NCBI GenBank assembly: GCA_023954475.1
Contig: JAMLHW010000004.1
Location: 1-64,000, forward strand
Reading direction: 5' to 3'
DNA length: 64,000 nucleotides
Source: Anaerolineae bacterium
Lineage (GTDB): Bacteria; Chloroflexota; Anaerolineae; Promineifilales; Promineifilaceae
This document shows positions 31,224 to 44,605 of the stretch, in pieces. The notes under the pieces were generated by a model, which was given only the letters and a program-made list of their open reading frames with translations, was not told the origin of the DNA and made no database searches. The position numbers and the translations under genes were made by a program. The stretch's first letter is position 1, and every line of letters begins with the position of its first letter.

Positions 31224-32372
31224 ATGCGCATTTTACTCTTGTCACCATACCACAGCGGCAGCCACCAAGCCTGGGCTGAAGGATACACTGCGCACAGCCG
31301 GCATACAGTCGATTTATTGACGCTGCCGGGCCGTTTCTGGAAATGGCGCATGCATGGGGGCGCGGTTACTCTGGCGCGACACTGGCTCAATTCGGCCGAA
31401 ACAGTACCCGACATCATCATGGCTGACGACATGCTCGATCTGTCCACCTTTCTCGCCCTCACCCGTTCTACAACGGCGACTATCCCCACCGTGCTCTACA
31501 TGCACGAAAATCAGCTCACCTATCCGCTACCTGCCGACGGCGCGACCGGACCGATGCGCCGCCAACACGGTGAACGCGATTTGCATTACGTCTTTATTAA
31601 CTACGCTTCCATGCTCGCCGCCGACGAAATCTGGTTCAATTCACGCTTTCATTACGAAAGCTGGTTTAACGCGCTGCCGGGCTTTTTACGTCGCTTTCCC
31701 GAATACAATGAACTGGAAACGGTAGCGATGCTGCACCGCAAGGCGCACATCATGCCGGTTGGTGTCGATTGGCAGCGATTGGAACCCGGAATCGAGAAAA
31801 AAGAATCGGCCGAACCATTGATTCTGTGGAACCAGCGCTGGGAATACGACAAAAATCCCCGCGCGTTCTTTGATCTGCTCGACAAGCTCGACAGGGCCGG
31901 TCTGCCGTTTCGCGTGGCGCTGTGCGGTGAGAATTTCAGCAACCAGCCGGTAGAATTCGAGCAAGCCATCGTCCGACTGGGCGAACGCATTGTACACAGC
32001 GGTTATGCCGATGAAGCCACATACCGCCGCTTGTTGTGGCAAGCCGACATCGTCATCTCCACGGCATTGCATGAGTTTTTTGGCATCAGTATTGTGGAGG
32101 CTATCTACTGCCGCACGTTTCCTCTGCTACCACACCGTCTCAGTTACCCTGAGCTAATCCCGCCGCAATATCACGCCGATGTTTTGTATGCCGATTCGGC
32201 CGAACTGGAACAAATGGCGATCAACGCGCTCACACAACCTGATTATACCAGACGCATTTCGGCCGAATTAGCCACCGCAGTCGCATCTTATGGCTGGCGT
32301 AACATGGCTTCACGCTATGATGCGCGATTGCTAAAAATCCACAAACTACTTGACGAGTCAACAAACCGGTAG
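31224..32372 (+). CDS. DUF3524 glycosyltransferase, tRNA-queuosine mannosyltransferase-like
   Basis: A 382-residue GT-B fold protein. The N-terminal DUF3524 domain (LLLSPYHSGSHQAWAEGY, PGRFWKWRMHGGA, MADDMLDLSTFLAL, YMHENQLTYPLP) is the hallmark of QTMAN, the enzyme that adds mannose to queuosine in tRNA(Asp) of animals and has bacterial homologues. The C-terminal GT domain has NQRWEYDKNPRAFFDLL and STALHEFFGISIVEAIYC. The bacterial role is inferred from family only. It lies 120 bp upstream of the glgP gene. Confidence 0.85.
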   Translation: MRILLLSPYHSGSHQAWAEGYTAHSRHTVDLLTLPGRFWKWRMHGGAVTLARHWLNSAETVPDIIMADDMLDLSTFLALTRSTTATIPTVLYMHENQLTYPLPADGATGPMRRQHGERDLHYVFINYASMLAADEIWFNSRFHYESWFNALPGFLRRFPEYNELETVAMLHRKAHIMPVGVDWQRLEPGIEKKESAEPLILWNQRWEYDKNPRAFFDLLDKLDRAGLPFRVALCGENFSNQPVEFEQAIVRLGERIVHSGYADEATYRRLLWQADIVISTALHEFFGISIVEAIYCRTFPLLPHRLSYPELIPPQYHADVLYADSAELEQMAINALTQPDYTRRISAELATAVASYGWRNMASRYDARLLKIHKLLDESTNR

Positions 32373-32521
32373 ATAATTGGATTTTACCGTCGTTGCGAAC
32401 GACCAACCGAATTTTATGCCGCCGCCTACCACATCACTGCCTTTTCCCTGTGTTCTCACTATCGAGCAGCACACCGTCACAGTGTTTTGAGGACGGCGAC
32501 CTTTCAAGGAAACTCACCAAT

Positions 32522-34672
32522 ATGGAAACTTTACTCATTGATCGTATGCCTGCTTCTCTTTCTCGTTTACCTGAACTTGCGTACAACCTGTGGTGGAGTT
32601 GGACACCTGAAGCGCGTTCCATGTTCCGCCAACTCGACTATCCGCTGTGGCGCAAAACCAACCATAACCCGATACGCATGTTGCAGGAAATCAGTCTTGA
32701 GAAACTGAATGAAATCGCTGAAGATCCATCGTTTCTGCGCCTTTACAAAAAGACGATCATGATGATGGATAAAGAAATGGCGTTTGAGGGTTCCTGGTTC
32801 ACAAAAACTTACCCGGAACAAGCGGGCGATGTGATCGCTTATTTTTCGGCCGAATTTGGTCTCCACAACTCCATTCCCATCTATTCCGGCGGCTTGGGCA
32901 TCCTGTCCGGCGACCATGCCAAAGAAGCCAGTGATCTCGGCATTCCGCTCGTCGGCATCGGCTTCCTCTACCCACAAGGTTACTTCCGCCAACACATTCC
33001 AAATCACGGTTGGCAGGAAGCCATCTACGATCAACTGGACATTACCAAAGCCGCTATTCAACATGCCTATGACGCGGATGGCAATGATATCAAAGTGACG
33101 GTGCGCATTGGTGACCGTGATGTACACGCCCGCGTTTGGCATGTTCGTGTCGGCCGAACCCCACTCTACTTGATGGACACTGACGTCGACGAAAATGATC
33201 CGTGGAACCGCGAACTGTCAGCTCGACTCTACTCCGGTGACAGCGAAATGCGCATCCGACAGGAAATGCTGCTCGGTATCGGTGGTGTTCGGGTCATTCG
33301 TGCGCTGGGCTATAATCCTAAAGCCTGGCATATGAACGAAGGACACTCCGCATTTCTCATATTGGAATGCATTCGTGAGAAAGTCGCCGCCGGTCTTACC
33401 TTCGAACAAGCTGCCGAAGAAGTGCAAAATCGCACAATCTTCACGACACACACGCCAGTTCCCGCCGGTCACGATGCTTTCGCTTTCCAGGTTGTTGAGA
33501 AATACTTCCAGGGGTATTGGCAAGAATTAGGCATATCTCTGGAACAACTGCTCGAACTGGGCAACCACCAGGAAGCATGGGGTACCGCGTTCAATATGAC
33601 CGTCCTCGCACTGCGCATGTCCGGCCAATCCAATGGCGTCAGCGAACTCCACGGTGCAGTTTCCCGCAACATGTGGCAAGGAGTCTGGCCTGAAACACCT
33701 CCAGAATCCAACCCCATCACACATGTAACCAACGGTGTTCACATGCCAACCTGGATATCAGCCGGTTTATACGATCTGCACAAACTGTATCTCGGTCCCG
33801 ACTGGTCGCAGAAGCAGGATGATCCCAAAATATGGGAGCAAATGACCAACGTGCCGGATGAGGTGCTCTGGGATTTACACATGATCATGAAGGGAAAACT
33901 GATTTCCTTCATCACCGACAACGCGCGACGTCGTTGGCTTGCCGGCAACACAGACCCCGGACAAATCCTGACAAGCGGGACCTTGCTCGACCCCAATGCG
34001 CTAACCATCGGTTTTGCCCGCCGCTTTGCCACATATAAGCGTGCCACACTGATTTTCCACGATCTGGAGCGCTTGCGTCGCATCATGCTCAACACGCATC
34101 GGCCGGTACAGTTCGTGTTTGCCGGCAAGGCACACCCGGCTGATGATCCCGGCAAATCGATGATCCAGCAAGTCTACAACATGGCAAAAAGTCACGAAAT
34201 GGGCGGGCGTGTTGCCTTCATCGAAAACTATAACATGCATTCTGCTCACTACCTGGTTCAAGGCGTCGATGTGTGGCTGAATAACCCGCGCCGCCCGCGT
34301 GAAGCCAGCGGAACGAGTGGCATGAAGGCAGCGATGAACGGCATTCCCAATCTGAGCATTCTCGACGGATGGTGGGTTGAAGGGTATAACGGCGCTAACG
34401 GCTGGACAATTGGTTCGCAGGAACCGTTTGATTCTACTGCTGAAGAAGACGACGTTGATGCCAATGCCATTTACGAGTTGTTGGAAAATGAGATCGTGCC
34501 ACTGTACTACTCTCGGGATCGCGACGGAATTCCGCGCGGCTGGGTTGAAGTGATGCGTGAATCAATTCGCTCGGTTAGTCCGCAGTTCAGCATGACACGT
34601 ATGCTGAAAGATTACACAGAGCAGCTCTATATCAATGCGCTCCGAGTTGCAGAACTCAGCCATGCTGACTGA
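32522..34672 (+). CDS. glgP: Alpha-glucan (maltodextrin/glycogen) phosphorylase
   Basis: This enzyme releases glucose-1-phosphate from alpha-1,4-glucans. It starts at the ATG 32522 with AAGGA upstream; a longer ORF begins at 32393 but lacks family content there. The 716-residue product has the short-form layout of bacterial GlgP (NLWWSWTPEARSMF, AYFSAEFGLHNSIPIYSGGL, YPQGYFRQHIPNHGWQE, TTHTPVPAGHDAF) and the PLP-lysine segment ASGTSGMKAAMNGIPNLSIL. No other glycogen genes are seen here. A hairpin follows the stop. Confidence 0.94.
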   Translation: METLLIDRMPASLSRLPELAYNLWWSWTPEARSMFRQLDYPLWRKTNHNPIRMLQEISLEKLNEIAEDPSFLRLYKKTIMMMDKEMAFEGSWFTKTYPEQAGDVIAYFSAEFGLHNSIPIYSGGLGILSGDHAKEASDLGIPLVGIGFLYPQGYFRQHIPNHGWQEAIYDQLDITKAAIQHAYDADGNDIKVTVRIGDRDVHARVWHVRVGRTPLYLMDTDVDENDPWNRELSARLYSGDSEMRIRQEMLLGIGGVRVIRALGYNPKAWHMNEGHSAFLILECIREKVAAGLTFEQAAEEVQNRTIFTTHTPVPAGHDAFAFQVVEKYFQGYWQELGISLEQLLELGNHQEAWGTAFNMTVLALRMSGQSNGVSELHGAVSRNMWQGVWPETPPESNPITHVTNGVHMPTWISAGLYDLHKLYLGPDWSQKQDDPKIWEQMTNVPDEVLWDLHMIMKGKLISFITDNARRRWLAGNTDPGQILTSGTLLDPNALTIGFARRFATYKRATLIFHDLERLRRIMLNTHRPVQFVFAGKAHPADDPGKSMIQQVYNMAKSHEMGGRVAFIENYNMHSAHYLVQGVDVWLNNPRRPREASGTSGMKAAMNGIPNLSILDGWWVEGYNGANGWTIGSQEPFDSTAEEDDVDANAIYELLENEIVPLYYSRDRDGIPRGWVEVMRESIRSVSPQFSMTRMLKDYTEQLYINALRVAELSHAD

Positions 34673-35338: not shown

Positions 35339-35860
35339 ATGGCGTTGACGGATACACCACCTACAGAATCATCCTCGTCATCGATCCCGCCCACTGATGA
35401 CCAACTGACGCGTGCCAAGGCACTGCGGCGTTTTAATTGGCTGTATATCTATACACCTATCATCGTCGCAGCCTCGTTATCGTTAATCGCCTTGCTGCTC
35501 TTGACCTGGTTTAGTCTGGTGCCCGACTCGGCCGAAGAAATCCTGTTCATCTCCGGTTTAGCCGACATCATTCTCATCGGCTGGATGTGTCCGGCAACGT
35601 TAATTTTCAGCTTGGGCCCAATTGCAGGTATCTATTACTTTTACAGGCGGCGACAACACGGTTCCTATGTACGAGAACCATTACAGCGCCTTTCCTGGCG
35701 TACAGACAACTTGCTTGATGCCTCGCAGAGCAAAATCAAGGGCGTACAGCCCCATGTAGCCAAGCCGTTTATCGAAGCACATGGCTGGGTTGCTTTTTTC
35801 CGCAACATCTTGCAGCAGATCGTACAGTCAATCAGAAATCTTTTTGAACGGAGAAACTAA
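35339..35860 (+). CDS. Predicted membrane protein, 173 residues, unknown
   Basis: Two hydrophobic segments (YTPIIVAASLSLIALLLLTW in residues 39-58; LADIILIGWMCPATLIFSLG in about 78-97) follow an N-terminus rich in Ser/Pro. The cytosolic tail is basic. The stop codon overlaps the start of the next gene (TAATG), so the two are co-translated. A TAGAAT box lies 7 bp before the ATG with no ribosome-binding site, suggesting a leaderless mRNA. No family recognised. Confidence 0.65.
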   Translation: MALTDTPPTESSSSSIPPTDDQLTRAKALRRFNWLYIYTPIIVAASLSLIALLLLTWFSLVPDSAEEILFISGLADIILIGWMCPATLIFSLGPIAGIYYFYRRRQHGSYVREPLQRLSWRTDNLLDASQSKIKGVQPHVAKPFIEAHGWVAFFRNILQQIVQSIRNLFERRN

Positions 35861-36081
35861 TGGCAAATTATCAGGAGCAAGAAAACTGGAAAACGAAACT
35901 CCTGGTCGGTGGCACGATAGTCGGTGCTATCATCGGCCTGGCGACGGCATTTATGCTGGCGCGAGCGGCTGAGGAGAATGGCGAAGGACCACCCAATATT
36001 GATACGATGGACGCGCTCAAAATTGGAGTTGGCATCATTGGCACAGCACGCACAATTGCTGCACTGGCAAACAAGAATTAG
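35860..36081 (+). CDS. Small membrane protein, YtxH-like layout
   Basis: A 73-residue protein with one TM helix (LLVGGTIVGAIIGLATAFML, residues 14-33) followed by an acidic linker and a second weaker hydrophobic part (ALKIGVGIIGTARTIAALA). The glycine zipper in the first helix resembles YtxH-like proteins. It starts in the stop codon of the previous gene and is followed by a clear terminator at 36156-36184. Function unknown. Confidence 0.65.
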   Translation: MANYQEQENWKTKLLVGGTIVGAIIGLATAFMLARAAEENGEGPPNIDTMDALKIGVGIIGTARTIAALANKN

Positions 36082-36155
36082 TTGCACAGAATTCGGCCGA
36101 TTCAGACGTACAGTAGTGCGCTAATCGCACTCTAACACAAACGCGCTATAATCGA

Positions 36156-36184
36156 AATCGTCGGTACAATACCGACGATTTTGT
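36156..36184 (+). terminator. Intrinsic terminator of the membrane-protein pair
   Basis: Perfect 11-bp arms AATCGTCGGTA and TACCGACGATT with a 3-base loop, followed by TTGTT, 75 bp after the stop of the 73-residue protein gene. Confidence 0.75.
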
Positions 36185-36508
36185 TATGCAAAGAACTATT
36201 GACGCATTTTGAATTCGAACAGCGTCAATTACGACGGGATTAACAACAGCAAAGCTTATTTGGGGCCATCCATTTGTTTACCGTAGCGCCGCCAAAAGAC
36301 TTTCGGCGCCGGATTTTTCGGCCGACCCATTTCGTGGCAGATTACCAATTTTCGATTTTGCCTTGTGGCACACGTTACCAACTGTCTTCCACACAATTCG
36401 GCCGATTACCATTGCACGACCGCACAACCAATTTATCTTGTGTCAAGCAGCGTGTCGTGAAGCCTGCAACCAGCCTCCTGCTCATTGATCCCGCTAAGGA
36501 GAAAACAA
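36185..36508. other. Spacer upstream of the PHP-AlbA_2 gene
   Basis: No gene is supported in this 324-bp stretch. It has an inverted repeat ATTGACGC (36198-36205) and GCGTCAAT (36222-36229) around a TTCGAA centre, a possible operator, and two TCGGCCGA octamers (about 36319 and 36398). Confidence 0.5.
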
Positions 36509-38260
36509 TTGAATAATCGTGGCGGTGGACGCCGCAACACCCGTTCCCGTAAATCACGGCAATGGCGTCGTATGGATTTACATATTCATACACCTGCCTC
36601 AAGTGATTATCAGGAACCCAACGTAACCTATCTCGATATCTTGCATCAGGCAGAACTGCGTGGGCTTGACATCATCGCTTTTACCGATCACAACACCGTG
36701 GCCGGTTATGCGGCCCTGCGACAAGAGCTGCAAAACCTGTTGCTGCTAGAAGAATTACAACGCATTCAGCCCGATGAAAAATATCGTCTGGATGAATATC
36801 GCCGTCTGCTGGACAAAATCCTGATTCTACCGGGATTCGAGTTTACCGCGACATTTGGATTCCATATCATCGGTGTATTTCCCCAGGAAACCTCGATCAG
36901 CGTATTGGAACACCTGCTCCTGACACTGAATGTGCCGCCGGATTTACTCAAATCCGGCAGTTCCACAGTTGGCTCAACCAGCGATGTGTTGACAGCTTAT
37001 CGCGTCATCAATGAAGCCGGAGGCATCGTCATTGCCGCACACGCCAATTCGAGCAACGGCGTCGCTATGCGTGGCTTCGACTTCGGTGGACAAACACGCA
37101 TCGCCTACACACAAGACCCTAATCTGCATGTTCTCGAAGTAACCGACCTCGACAAACGAGGCCGTTACACAACACAGCGTTTTTTCTCGGGATCAAAGAC
37201 AGAATACCCGCGTCCCATGCGATGCATTCAGGGTTCTGATGCGCACCGGCTTGTCCGCGATACCAAAAACCCCAAATTGACTGGCATCGGCGACCGCATC
37301 ACCGAAATCCTGCTGCCGGAAGTGAGTTTTGCAGCCCTGGCGCAAACACTTAAAAGTAACGACCTGGCATTGACACGCCCATTCCACGGACAAGCACAAC
37401 CGCTTGACTTCGTACAAACAGCACGAGAGAGCGGGGAAAGTATCGTCCAGGTTTTTCGGCCGAGCATGACGATTCGAGGCGGATTTTTCGACACCATCTT
37501 GCAAGACGTTTGCGGCATGGCCAACACCAACGGCGGCACAATTTACATCGGCGTCGCATCCGATCCCAAAGTAGCTCCCGCGGGTGTGCGTGAACCGGAG
37601 AAAGCAACCAAACGCCTCAACAACGCCATCCAGGAACGCTTCAGCCCAGTACCTGAAGTCACCATCGACCGGATTCGTTCTCAGGGAAAAAACATATTAC
37701 GCGTTGCCGTAGAATTGGGCGATGACCTGCCTTACTCATTGGACGAAAACCAAATATTTGTGCGGGACGAAACCGAAACCAATCTGGCCGTACGCGATGA
37801 AATTGTGCGCCTCGTTGAGCGTGGCCTGAGCAAAAAGCCGGTGACTAAACCAACGACGTCTAAACCGGGCAAAGCGGCCGAGACTGTGGCACCGGTTGTG
37901 TCAAGCAGAACCATTCCAGCACCACGCACCGGCGTTGAAATTGTCGATAGCACAAAACGCAATGGCAAGGTGTACCATACAGTTCGTGACTTGCGCAACA
38001 ACAATCTGATTCAAAACGTAACGCGCCAGTCAGCCCGCAAATTGTGGCACTATGCTATCAAGCAAACCGAAAACGGCGTGCCATCAGAGCAGGAGATCAC
38101 GTGGAATGGTGACATTGCCCTACTCAACAAGCGTACAAAAGACAATTACACCTGGTATGACCTCGCTATGCGCGAAAACGATACAGTCCATATTTATTAC
38201 GGGGTCACAGACAACGGTCTGAGCGATGAGTGGCTGCTGCTCCTCAGCGAATCAACCTGA
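36509..38260 (+). CDS. PHP metal-dependent phosphoesterase fused to an AlbA_2 (Schlafen-type) domain
   Basis: The start is the TTG at 36509, with a perfect AAGGAG 7 bases upstream; an ATG 24 bp upstream is also possible. A basic N-terminus precedes a PHP domain (residues 22-290): MDLHIHTP, AFTDHNTVAGY, IVIAAHANSSNG, IQGSDAHR give the His/Asp metal ligands. Next comes an AlbA_2-like domain (about 315-455; DVCGMANTNGGTIYIGV, IFVRDETETNLAVRDE) found in Schlafen-type proteins, then an unrecognised C-terminal domain (from about 480). The total is 583 residues. PHP plus AlbA_2 suggests a nucleic acid or nucleotide hydrolase with a regulatory or binding module; the real role is unknown. Confidence 0.8.
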   Translation: MNNRGGGRRNTRSRKSRQWRRMDLHIHTPASSDYQEPNVTYLDILHQAELRGLDIIAFTDHNTVAGYAALRQELQNLLLLEELQRIQPDEKYRLDEYRRLLDKILILPGFEFTATFGFHIIGVFPQETSISVLEHLLLTLNVPPDLLKSGSSTVGSTSDVLTAYRVINEAGGIVIAAHANSSNGVAMRGFDFGGQTRIAYTQDPNLHVLEVTDLDKRGRYTTQRFFSGSKTEYPRPMRCIQGSDAHRLVRDTKNPKLTGIGDRITEILLPEVSFAALAQTLKSNDLALTRPFHGQAQPLDFVQTARESGESIVQVFRPSMTIRGGFFDTILQDVCGMANTNGGTIYIGVASDPKVAPAGVREPEKATKRLNNAIQERFSPVPEVTIDRIRSQGKNILRVAVELGDDLPYSLDENQIFVRDETETNLAVRDEIVRLVERGLSKKPVTKPTTSKPGKAAETVAPVVSSRTIPAPRTGVEIVDSTKRNGKVYHTVRDLRNNNLIQNVTRQSARKLWHYAIKQTENGVPSEQEITWNGDIALLNKRTKDNYTWYDLAMRENDTVHIYYGVTDNGLSDEWLLLLSEST

Positions 38261-38343
38261 CTGTAACTGAAGTTTTCAGAAGCCTAGCTTTTGTTATGAG
38301 TAGTGTTTACTCCAGACGAAAAAGCTAGGCTTCTTTCGTGCAG
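38261..38343. repeat. 84-bp stem-loop repeat element, copy 2
   Basis: Begins on the base after the stop codon of the PHP-AlbA_2 gene. Its inner arms are perfect, GAAGCCTAGCTTTT and AAAAGCTAGGCTTC. It is about 87% identical to the copy at 27124-27207, with the 3' end more divergent. It may end the upstream transcript. Confidence 0.75.
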
Positions 38344-40033: not shown

Positions 40034-40260
40034 ACTGCTGTGCAGAGAGAAAAATCGGCCGAATTTACCTGATTTTGCTGTTTATTGTTTACGCAGCGCC
40101 CATTTCCTGATACGATGTGCTTAAGCCAGCCCAATATGGTCTGTGTAACGTTGTGTCAAAATCGATTGACGAACCAATGCCCTACCAGTTGCAGTTTGAC
40201 ACCAACTGGTTCAAACTACACAAATGATGGTGTCATAAATTGGGAAAAGGAGAAAATCAC

Positions 40261-41820
40261 ATGAACTACAAACCAACCTCATCAGTCAAATTGCTAATTG
40301 TCACCTTGCTGTTGGCATTGTTGCTCGCCGCAGGCATTACCGTGCGCACCGGGCGCGTGCAGGCGGCTCAATCTAATCCGACGATTGCGGAAATTTTGTC
40401 CGGTGACAGCAACTTTACCACCCTGGCAGCAATTTTAGATGCATCTTTGCTCACGCAAACGTTTAATGGCGAAGAGGTTTACACCGTTTTTGCACCGACA
40501 AATGATGCGATTGCAGCCTTGACGCCCGATATGTTGGCTGCAGTTGAAGGTGATCCACTCGGCGCACTGACTGATTTGATACTTTTCCACACTCTGGAAG
40601 GTGCAGTTTCGGCCGAACAGTTGGGCGCAATGGACACAGTCGACACAGTTGCCGGTATTCCACTGAGCATAACCGTTACCGATGACGGCACGATTCTCAA
40701 TGGCTCTGTCCATCTCATCCTAACCGATGTAATGGCCGCCAACGGCATCATTCACGTCGTTGACGGGGTGCTGATACCCGGCGCAGCGGACGATACGGCA
40801 ATGGCACCGGATATGGATGCAGCCACAGAAGAAACCGATGACGCTGACACAGAAGAAGCTGCCGACACCGAAGAAACTGCCGACACCGACGAAGCCGCCG
40901 ATACCGAAGAAGCTGCCGATACCGACGCGGCTGACGACGCTGATATGGCTGACGACGCTGATATGGCTGACGACGCTGACACGGCTGATGACGCTGACAT
41001 GGCCGACGATGCTGACATGGCCGACGATGCTGATATGGCTGACGACGCTGATATGGCCGACGATGCTGATATGGCTGACGACGCTGACATGGCCGACGAC
41101 GCTGATATGTCTGACGATGCTGATATGGCTGACGATGCTGATATGGCTGACGATGCTGATATGGCTGATGATGCTGACATGGCCGACGATGCCGACACGG
41201 CTGATGATGCTGACATGGCTGATGATGCTGACATGGCCGACGAGACTGATACAGAAGAAGCCGCTGCTGCCGACTCAGCAAGCGATGACGAAGCAGAAGA
41301 CGATGTCGTCTACGGTTACTCGATAGCTGATGTACTCGAATCAGCGCGGGCATTTTCAATGTTGACTGATATTCTGGCGGCGGGAGACGGTCTTGAACTG
41401 CTGCGCCAAGACGGCGAGTATACCGTCTTTGCACCAACCAATGCTGCCATCGAAGCGTTGCCCGCAGAATTGTTAGACGCATTAGCGTCCCATCCGGGTG
41501 CCTTGGAACGTCTTGTACGCTATCACATCGTAAAAGGTGTCATACCATCAGCAGAACTGGCAGATTGTCGGCTGTTACAATCAAGTATCGGAACCGGCAT
41601 TAAGGTCGAGATCGATGAAGAAGGTAATTATTTACTTAACGGCAGCACCCAAATCCTGATCAGCGATGTCATGACAGACAATGGCATCATTTACGTGATC
41701 GATTCTGTTTTGCTGCCCCCGGCTATGCAAAAGTCGATGATGCATGACCATGAGGCGCATATGCCAATGCACCCGCATCGGCCGATGCACCCCCACCATC
41801 ACGCACCGTCCATGCCCTGA
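40261..41820 (+). CDS. Secreted FAS1 (fasciclin) protein with acidic repeat and His/Met-rich tail
   Basis: 519 residues from the ATG at 40261 (AAAGGAG upstream; a TTG start 21 bp earlier is less likely). A signal peptide (residues 12-38, ending VQAA) is followed by FAS1 domain 1 (about 40-185; VFAPTNDAIAAL, IIHVVDGVLIP). A 6-residue repeat DDADMA (17 units, residues about 225-326) follows a Glu/Asp/Thr-rich linker. FAS1 domain 2 (about 345-490) has TVFAPTNAAIEALP and IIYVIDSVLLP. The tail is rich in His, Met and Pro (HDHEAHMPMHPHRP). It is probably a cell-surface adhesion protein; the tail may bind metals. Confidence 0.9.
   Translation: MNYKPTSSVKLLIVTLLLALLLAAGITVRTGRVQAAQSNPTIAEILSGDSNFTTLAAILDASLLTQTFNGEEVYTVFAPTNDAIAALTPDMLAAVEGDPLGALTDLILFHTLEGAVSAEQLGAMDTVDTVAGIPLSITVTDDGTILNGSVHLILTDVMAANGIIHVVDGVLIPGAADDTAMAPDMDAATEETDDADTEEAADTEETADTDEAADTEEAADTDAADDADMADDADMADDADTADDADMADDADMADDADMADDADMADDADMADDADMADDADMSDDADMADDADMADDADMADDADMADDADTADDADMADDADMADETDTEEAAAADSASDDEAEDDVVYGYSIADVLESARAFSMLTDILAAGDGLELLRQDGEYTVFAPTNAAIEALPAELLDALASHPGALERLVRYHIVKGVIPSAELADCRLLQSSIGTGIKVEIDEEGNYLLNGSTQILISDVMTDNGIIYVIDSVLLPPAMQKSMMHDHEAHMPMHPHRPMHPHHHAPSMP
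40933..41238 (+). repeat. Tandem 18-bp repeat, 17 copies, coding for DDADMA
   Basis: Exactly 306 bp made of 17 units, coding 17 copies of Asp-Asp-Ala-Asp-Met-Ala with rare Thr or Ser changes. Codon differences (GAC/GAT, GCT/GCC) distinguish some units, which fits slippage or unequal crossing-over. Confidence 0.9.
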
Positions 41821-43105: not shown

Positions 43106-44605
43106 ATGAACTTACGTAATGTGTTTTACCTATCAACCTTTTTAATTCTCGCACTGGTTCTTGCAGCTTGTAGCACTGCCGAAGAGACCAGCGAGCCAGT
43201 TTCAGAAGCAACTGTAGTCGTGGAAGCAAGTCAGGATGAATCCATGGACGAAGCGCCAATGGATGAAGAAATGGAGTCAATGGATGAAGAATTGCAATCC
43301 ATCGCGGCGATTGCATCTGGGAACGACGACTTCTCCACCCTGGTGACCGCACTCGATGCGGCTGGCCTCGTTGACACGTTTGCCGGTGACGGATCGTTCA
43401 CCGTCTTCGCACCAACCAATGCCGCTTTTGCCGCCCTCCCTGAAGGTACGCTGGACGCATTGTTAGCTGATCCTCAAGGCGCACTGACCGACATTCTGAC
43501 CTATCACGTCGTCGGTGATGCGGTATTGGCTGAGCAGGTTGTGACACTCGATTCGGCCGATACGCTCAACGGCGCACCGATTGCAATTGCAGTTGTGGAC
43601 GACGGTGTCGTTCTGAACGATACCGTTAATGTTACAGCGACAGATATTATGGCTAGCAACGGCGTCATTCACGTCATCGACGCAGTTTTACTGCCTCCGA
43701 CCGACGAAATGATGGAAGATGAGATGATGGAAGAGCCAACACAGACGATTGCTGAAATTGCAGTTGCCAATGATGATTTTTCCACTTTGGTAACAGCACT
43801 CGAAGCAGCCGGACTGGTTGATACGTTTGCCGGCGAAGGCGCATTCACCGTCTTTGCTCCGACCAACGACGCGTTTGCCGCTTTGGGCGACACATTGAAC
43901 GATGTACTTGCTGATCCGCAAGGTCTGTTGACTGACATTCTAACCTACCATGTCGTAGACGGTGTTGTATTGGCCGAGCAGGTCGTAACACTCGATTCGG
44001 CCGATACGCTCAACGGCGCTCCGATTGCAATAGCCGTTGTTGACGGCAGCGTGGTACTCAATGACAGCACAAACGTCGTTGCAACTGACATCAAAGCGAC
44101 CAACGGCGTCATTCACGTCATCGATGCAGTCTTATTACCTTCAACCGACGAGATGATGGAAGACGAGACAGATGCGATGATGGAAGAGCCGACGCAGTCG
44201 ATCGCCGAAATCGCTGTCTCCAACGACGATTTCTCAACACTTGTAACGGCATTGACAGCAGCTAATCTGGTGGAAACCTTGTCCGGTGAAGGTGAGTTTA
44301 CCGTGTTTGCTCCAACGAACGATGCTTTTGCAGCGCTCGGCGATACGCTCAACGATGTACTGGCTGATCCGGAAGGGTTATTGACGCAGATACTTCTTTA
44401 CCACGTGGCTGATGGCATTGTACCGGCCGAAAAAGTTGTCACGCTCGATGAAGCACTCACACTCCAGGGTGATGCCATTACCATCGAAGTAACGGACGAC
44501 GGCGTTATTCTCAACGACACTGCCAACGTCATCACTACTGACATTAAAGCGACCAACGGCATTGTTCATGTCATTGACGCAGTATTGTTGCCACCAACAC
44601 CCTAA
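43106..44605 (+). CDS. Lipoprotein with three FAS1 domains
   Basis: 499 residues with a lipoprotein signal (FLILALVLAAC, Cys at about 22), GAGGAG 6 bases upstream of the ATG, and three FAS1 domains at about residues 65-200, 212-350 and 365-499. Each has a VFAPTN(A/D)AFAAL motif and a VIHVIDAVLLP-like end. They are linked by short Met/Asp/Glu-rich linkers (MMEDEMMEEP). Domains 1 and 2 share an identical 9-codon stretch with a TCGGCCGA octamer (43553 and 43996), so recent internal duplication is likely. Confidence 0.92.
   Translation: MNLRNVFYLSTFLILALVLAACSTAEETSEPVSEATVVVEASQDESMDEAPMDEEMESMDEELQSIAAIASGNDDFSTLVTALDAAGLVDTFAGDGSFTVFAPTNAAFAALPEGTLDALLADPQGALTDILTYHVVGDAVLAEQVVTLDSADTLNGAPIAIAVVDDGVVLNDTVNVTATDIMASNGVIHVIDAVLLPPTDEMMEDEMMEEPTQTIAEIAVANDDFSTLVTALEAAGLVDTFAGEGAFTVFAPTNDAFAALGDTLNDVLADPQGLLTDILTYHVVDGVVLAEQVVTLDSADTLNGAPIAIAVVDGSVVLNDSTNVVATDIKATNGVIHVIDAVLLPSTDEMMEDETDAMMEEPTQSIAEIAVSNDDFSTLVTALTAANLVETLSGEGEFTVFAPTNDAFAALGDTLNDVLADPEGLLTQILLYHVADGIVPAEKVVTLDEALTLQGDAITIEVTDDGVILNDTANVITTDIKATNGIVHVIDAVLLPPTP

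Follow-up and report, generated by a model that had tools for sequence, protein, structure and literature searches.

A conserved PHP–AlbA_2 protein of Chloroflexota with a new C-terminal domain

The 64,000-nucleotide stretch of Anaerolineae DNA analysed here (henceforth the window) contains a gene (36509–38260, + strand) whose 583-residue product joins a PHP domain, an SLFN/AlbA_2 domain and a C-terminal domain, and which raises the question of whether such a protein serves phage defence or the ordinary upkeep of the cell. An earlier note, made from the DNA letters and their translations, had read it as a new enzyme, possibly in defence or in RNA/nucleotide processing; the latter we still find plausible. 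Pfam, NCBIfam and the orthologues agree on the three-part architecture, of which we found no description in open-access papers (subscription papers may differ). Within the PHP hydrolases, the protein is a core enzyme that has not been studied before and whose combination of domains is new.

The program-listed open reading frame begins at a TTG at 36485, and the start preceded by a Shine-Dalgarno sequence is, as had been proposed, the TTG at 36509: CTAAGGAG can be read directly 7 nt upstream of it (TAAGGAG plus spacer, 36496–36508, + strand). Counted from this start, the PHP domain covers residues 18–290 (36560–37378), with a helical hairpin (residues 65–103) between motifs II and III, and is followed by the SLFN/AlbA_2 domain (residues ~300–440, 37406–37828), a variable, low-confidence linker (residues 441–470, 37829–37918) and the C-terminal domain (residues 472–583, 37922–38257), all on the + strand. 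The stem-loop repeat noted earlier at the stop codon is a real hairpin and is better described as an intrinsic terminator, in which a long hairpin leads into a T-rich tail (38278–38334, + strand; fold of −33.9 kcal/mol for 105 nt); a hairpin scan with a loop limit of 8 had missed it.

The general Pfam PHP model matches weakly (19.7 bits vs a cut-off of 26.4), while the NCBIfam TrlF model aligns with residues 18–282 (91 bits, E 6.6e-26). All the metal-ligand motifs of the fold (HxH, (T)DH, E, H, H, DxH) are present, and ten positions, D23, H25, H27, D60, H61, E111, H119, H178, D244 and H246, do not vary across 99 of 99 orthologues. The same ten, together with E210 and S243 (of the S-D-x-H motif), are invariant in 30 of 30 genomes from two clades of the phylum, so that the ligands whose loss had been named as evidence against a new enzyme are kept in both sets. 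Within the protein, conservation peaks at the PHP active site; given the invariance of the metal-site residues in the 99 orthologues, the enzyme is probably active, as judged from sequence. Structure prediction, which had been suggested as a check, recovered both the PHP and the AlbA_2 folds. In the AlphaFold2 model of the full protein (mean pLDDT 81; within the PHP domain mostly >90 at residues 21–110 and <60 in parts of 181–230), the PHP domain matches PHP structures with Z scores of 12–19, the best being Endonuclease Q (Z 19.4, rmsd 3.3, 230 residues), followed by TM0559 (Z 17.5) and RNase AM (Z 16.2).

Endonuclease Q (PfuEndoQ) is a PHP endonuclease that cuts DNA 5' of deaminated bases, and RNase AM, or RNase RNM (YciV), is a PHP 5'-3' exoribonuclease. 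The conserved residues of EndoQ include DLHxH, SDAH and Glu/His residues, and its C-terminal region carries a Cys4 zinc motif, CPxCG (PMC4357722). Apart from the shared fold, DLHxH, SDAH and the conserved Glu/His have apparent counterparts in our protein; on the other hand, the zinc motif is missing (only C239 and C335 are present), AlbA_2 and the new domain take the place of the EndoQ C-terminal region, and the helical hairpin is a large insert. RNase AM/RNM shares the PHP fold (Z ~16) and a distant sequence match that scores 22.1 bits against an equivalog cut-off of 375, and it lacks the extra domains found here. Fold likeness does not by itself point to a substrate: phosphatases of nucleotides and of sugar phosphates are found among PHP domains as well, and our protein could be a phosphatase of small metabolites (a nucleotide, pAp, a cyclic phosphate or a sugar phosphate) in which AlbA_2 and the C-terminal domain play an allosteric or regulatory part. 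The single-domain phosphoesterases TM0559 and BAD_1165 do fold closely to the PHP domain, and its NCBIfam relatives include, weakly, nucleoside bisphosphate and cyclic-phosphate enzymes; yet a DNA endonuclease gives the best fold match, AlbA_2 generally serves as a nucleic-acid module, and the C-terminal domain recurs on an NYN protein (see below). We regard such a phosphatase as possible but unlikely.

The AlbA_2 domain itself is well supported (Pfam SLFN_AlbA_2, PF04326, residues 330–425, E 3.2e-16, 60.4 bits vs a gathering cut-off of 25.3), and its fold resembles that of the RecG-related 2kyy and of the Schlafens, SLFN11 and SLFN13 among them, with Z scores of ~10–12. SLFN13 is an AlbA_2 pseudo-dimer that requires E205, E210 and D248 (PMC5862951), whereas each chain of our protein has one AlbA_2 copy. 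Unlike the Schlafens, moreover, it has lost the glutamate of the EFK motif (E210 in rSLFN13): in a profile alignment the SLFN11 equivalent falls on V315, in a column whose five commonest residues among the 99 orthologues are A, S, D, T and V, with no E seen. The missing glutamate suggests that this AlbA_2 is probably inactive as a nuclease and a binding module instead, which would bind nucleic acid or dimerise.

The earlier statement that the C-terminal ~100 residues match nothing known withstood closer scrutiny: they have no Pfam family match and no confident PDB relative. Predicted alone, this domain reaches a pLDDT of 93.5 with a bbb-a-bbb-a arrangement (b, strand; a, helix), and its nearest PDB structures are weak matches (best Foldseek E 0.015; VIA, Z 4.5). 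Identities as a tandem chromodomain, a dsRBD or an SsgA-like domain were rejected as weak matches that covered half of it or did not fit, as was an internal bbba-bbba duplication (hhalign probability 0.3, no better than controls; the halves are without sequence similarity). In genome G054 the domain ends a 509-residue NYN-domain protein, which the whole-protein query matched only via this domain. It may therefore be able to move between putative nucleases, a weak suggestion from a single case. The gene for the NYN-domain protein with this domain (L101:789–2318) occurs in one genome of its family only and has an enolase gene downstream on the opposite strand. A 766-residue paralogue (L102:1027–3327, − strand) combines PHP and AlbA_2 with what look like two to three diverged C-terminal domains and resembles the form found in a second Chloroflexota clade. 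Two orthologues (L134:3136–5661 and L135:3100–5655, both − strand) carry an extra acidic, proline-rich tail of ~200 residues after the C-terminal domain.

The source genome has one copy of the gene. Matches with E < 1e-90 were found in 46 of 59 related genomes (for the window's own family, 29 of 35), full-length orthologues of 51–68% identity occur across the class, far more than chance would give, and a profile of the C-terminal domain was positive in 168 of its 248 genomes; the second, more distant Chloroflexota clade has two or three copies of this domain. When 84,980 species genomes were scanned, the best 80 of 202 relatives were all labelled Chloroflexota or subgroups of it. Distances between the proteins of 30 genomes follow those of rpoB (r = 0.745, reached in 0 of 2000 permutations), and 1 of 12 well-supported splits of the tree conflicts with rpoB. 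Because of this wide distribution and co-divergence with rpoB, we consider the gene a mostly vertically inherited, mostly single-copy core gene of Chloroflexota, lost or absent in some families.

The description of the gene as standing alone holds for the source genome, and fails in relatives, in which an operon-like cluster surrounds it. Neighbours were counted on the same strand in loci long enough to test; these had been chosen mainly for their resemblance to the window gene, so that near relatives are over-represented and the loci are not independent in phylogeny. Lon is found no more than 3 kb upstream of the PHP gene in 55 of 91 such loci, Hsp20 upstream within 5.5 kb in 42 of 69, a lone receiver of 120 residues within 1 kb in 65 of 107, and MogA downstream in 36 of 100; complex I genes are further neighbours. 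The Lon linkage extends to distant clades, where that of the receiver is absent. The source genome has two lon genes elsewhere, neither with an adjoining Hsp20 or receiver. Where relatives carry the receiver (response regulator) gene, the window has a gap (36082–36508) with no credible remnant: the best tblastn hit (E 0.006 over 28 aa) is misplaced for an N-terminus, and a search for a relocated copy in the source genome returned only other, larger regulators at 26–33%. The isolation of the PHP gene is a derived state, in which neighbours have been lost. Just upstream of the gap remain, on the + strand, a small membrane protein (35339–35860) whose upstream position is conserved within the window's family (29 loci) and a 73-residue one-helix membrane protein (35860–36081) resembling, by eye, a 72-residue neighbour family of the relatives.

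Other + strand genes of the window also deserve mention. A tRNA-queuosine alpha-mannosyltransferase-like gene (31224–32372; QTMAN_N, E 2.7e-55) is kept near the locus in the window's family, a gene for a DUF3417 and carbohydrate phosphorylase protein (32393–34672) holds the same upstream position relative to the PHP gene in 16 loci, and downstream two multi-fasciclin-domain proteins (40240–41820 and 43106–44605) are encoded close together.

These data bear directly on defence. TrlF, Ppl and Spaf_1101 are PHP-ATPases of the anti-phage type, and by sequence theirs are the PHP domains closest to ours, TrlF being colinear over residues 18–282, so that the protein might be an anti-phage effector in which AlbA_2 has replaced the ATPase. 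The full-length equivalog scores are nevertheless far under the family cut-offs (91, 69 and 68 bits vs 350, 1000 and 475), and no ATPase part is present (Pfam finds AlbA_2 instead). Ours is, besides, a core gene rather than an island gene: it is near-universal in the window's family, mostly single-copy and co-divergent with rpoB, none of 50,697 phage records has it, plasmids give two weak matches that cover only or mainly the PHP part, and its neighbours, Lon, Hsp20, MogA and complex I genes, include no defence genes. We find such an effector quite improbable, and the neighbours and a distribution that is neither patchy nor mobile speak against a defence system. The defence role once envisaged was not borne out; a housekeeping or stress enzyme is more likely than a phage-defence gene.

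The receiver invites another reading. Often its gene runs into the start of the enzyme ORF or ends just short of it, and its phospho-Asp, Ser and Lys are conserved in a protein without an output domain. No fusion of receiver and enzyme was seen among relatives with longer ORFs, the extra length of which consists of long linkers or tails. AlbA_2 is also found in regulators, and the protein might be a transcription or signalling regulator that binds DNA through AlbA_2 under control of the receiver, with PHP only a sensor or modifier. The adjoining receiver without output domain fits this scheme; against it, no part of the protein is as conserved as the PHP active site and the receiver can be dispensed with, and we judge such a regulator improbable.

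We tentatively favour, at somewhat less than an even chance, a vertically inherited Chloroflexota PHP metallo-phosphoesterase that cuts phosphodiesters or terminal phosphates of nucleic acid and is linked to stress. The PHP domain, with its multi-metal centre, would carry out the cleavage, AlbA_2 would bind nucleic acid or dimerise, and the C-terminal domain, to go by the NYN protein, probably provides substrate or partner binding. Linkage to Lon, Hsp20 and a receiver that can be phosphorylated suggests a role in stress or damage handling, and the receiver may regulate the enzyme in the clades that retain it. Against this phosphoesterase stand the source genome, where the receiver is missing and Lon/Hsp20 do not adjoin the gene, the missing receiver linkage in distant clades, the single NYN fusion, a fold likeness that gives no substrate in a superfamily with small-molecule phosphatases, and a tree not fully congruent with rpoB. 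A more specific version, in which a kinase phosphorylates the lone receiver to switch the PHP nuclease beside Lon/Hsp20, and a transferable C-terminal domain targets nucleic acid, making this a family of stress or damage endonucleases, is speculative and would surprise us if correct.

A conserved, apparently active core metalloenzyme with an undescribed domain and no described function is a good experimental target. Its study would connect PHP chemistry with protein-stress loci and would show what relation there is between a housekeeping gene and the PHP type of anti-phage ATPases.
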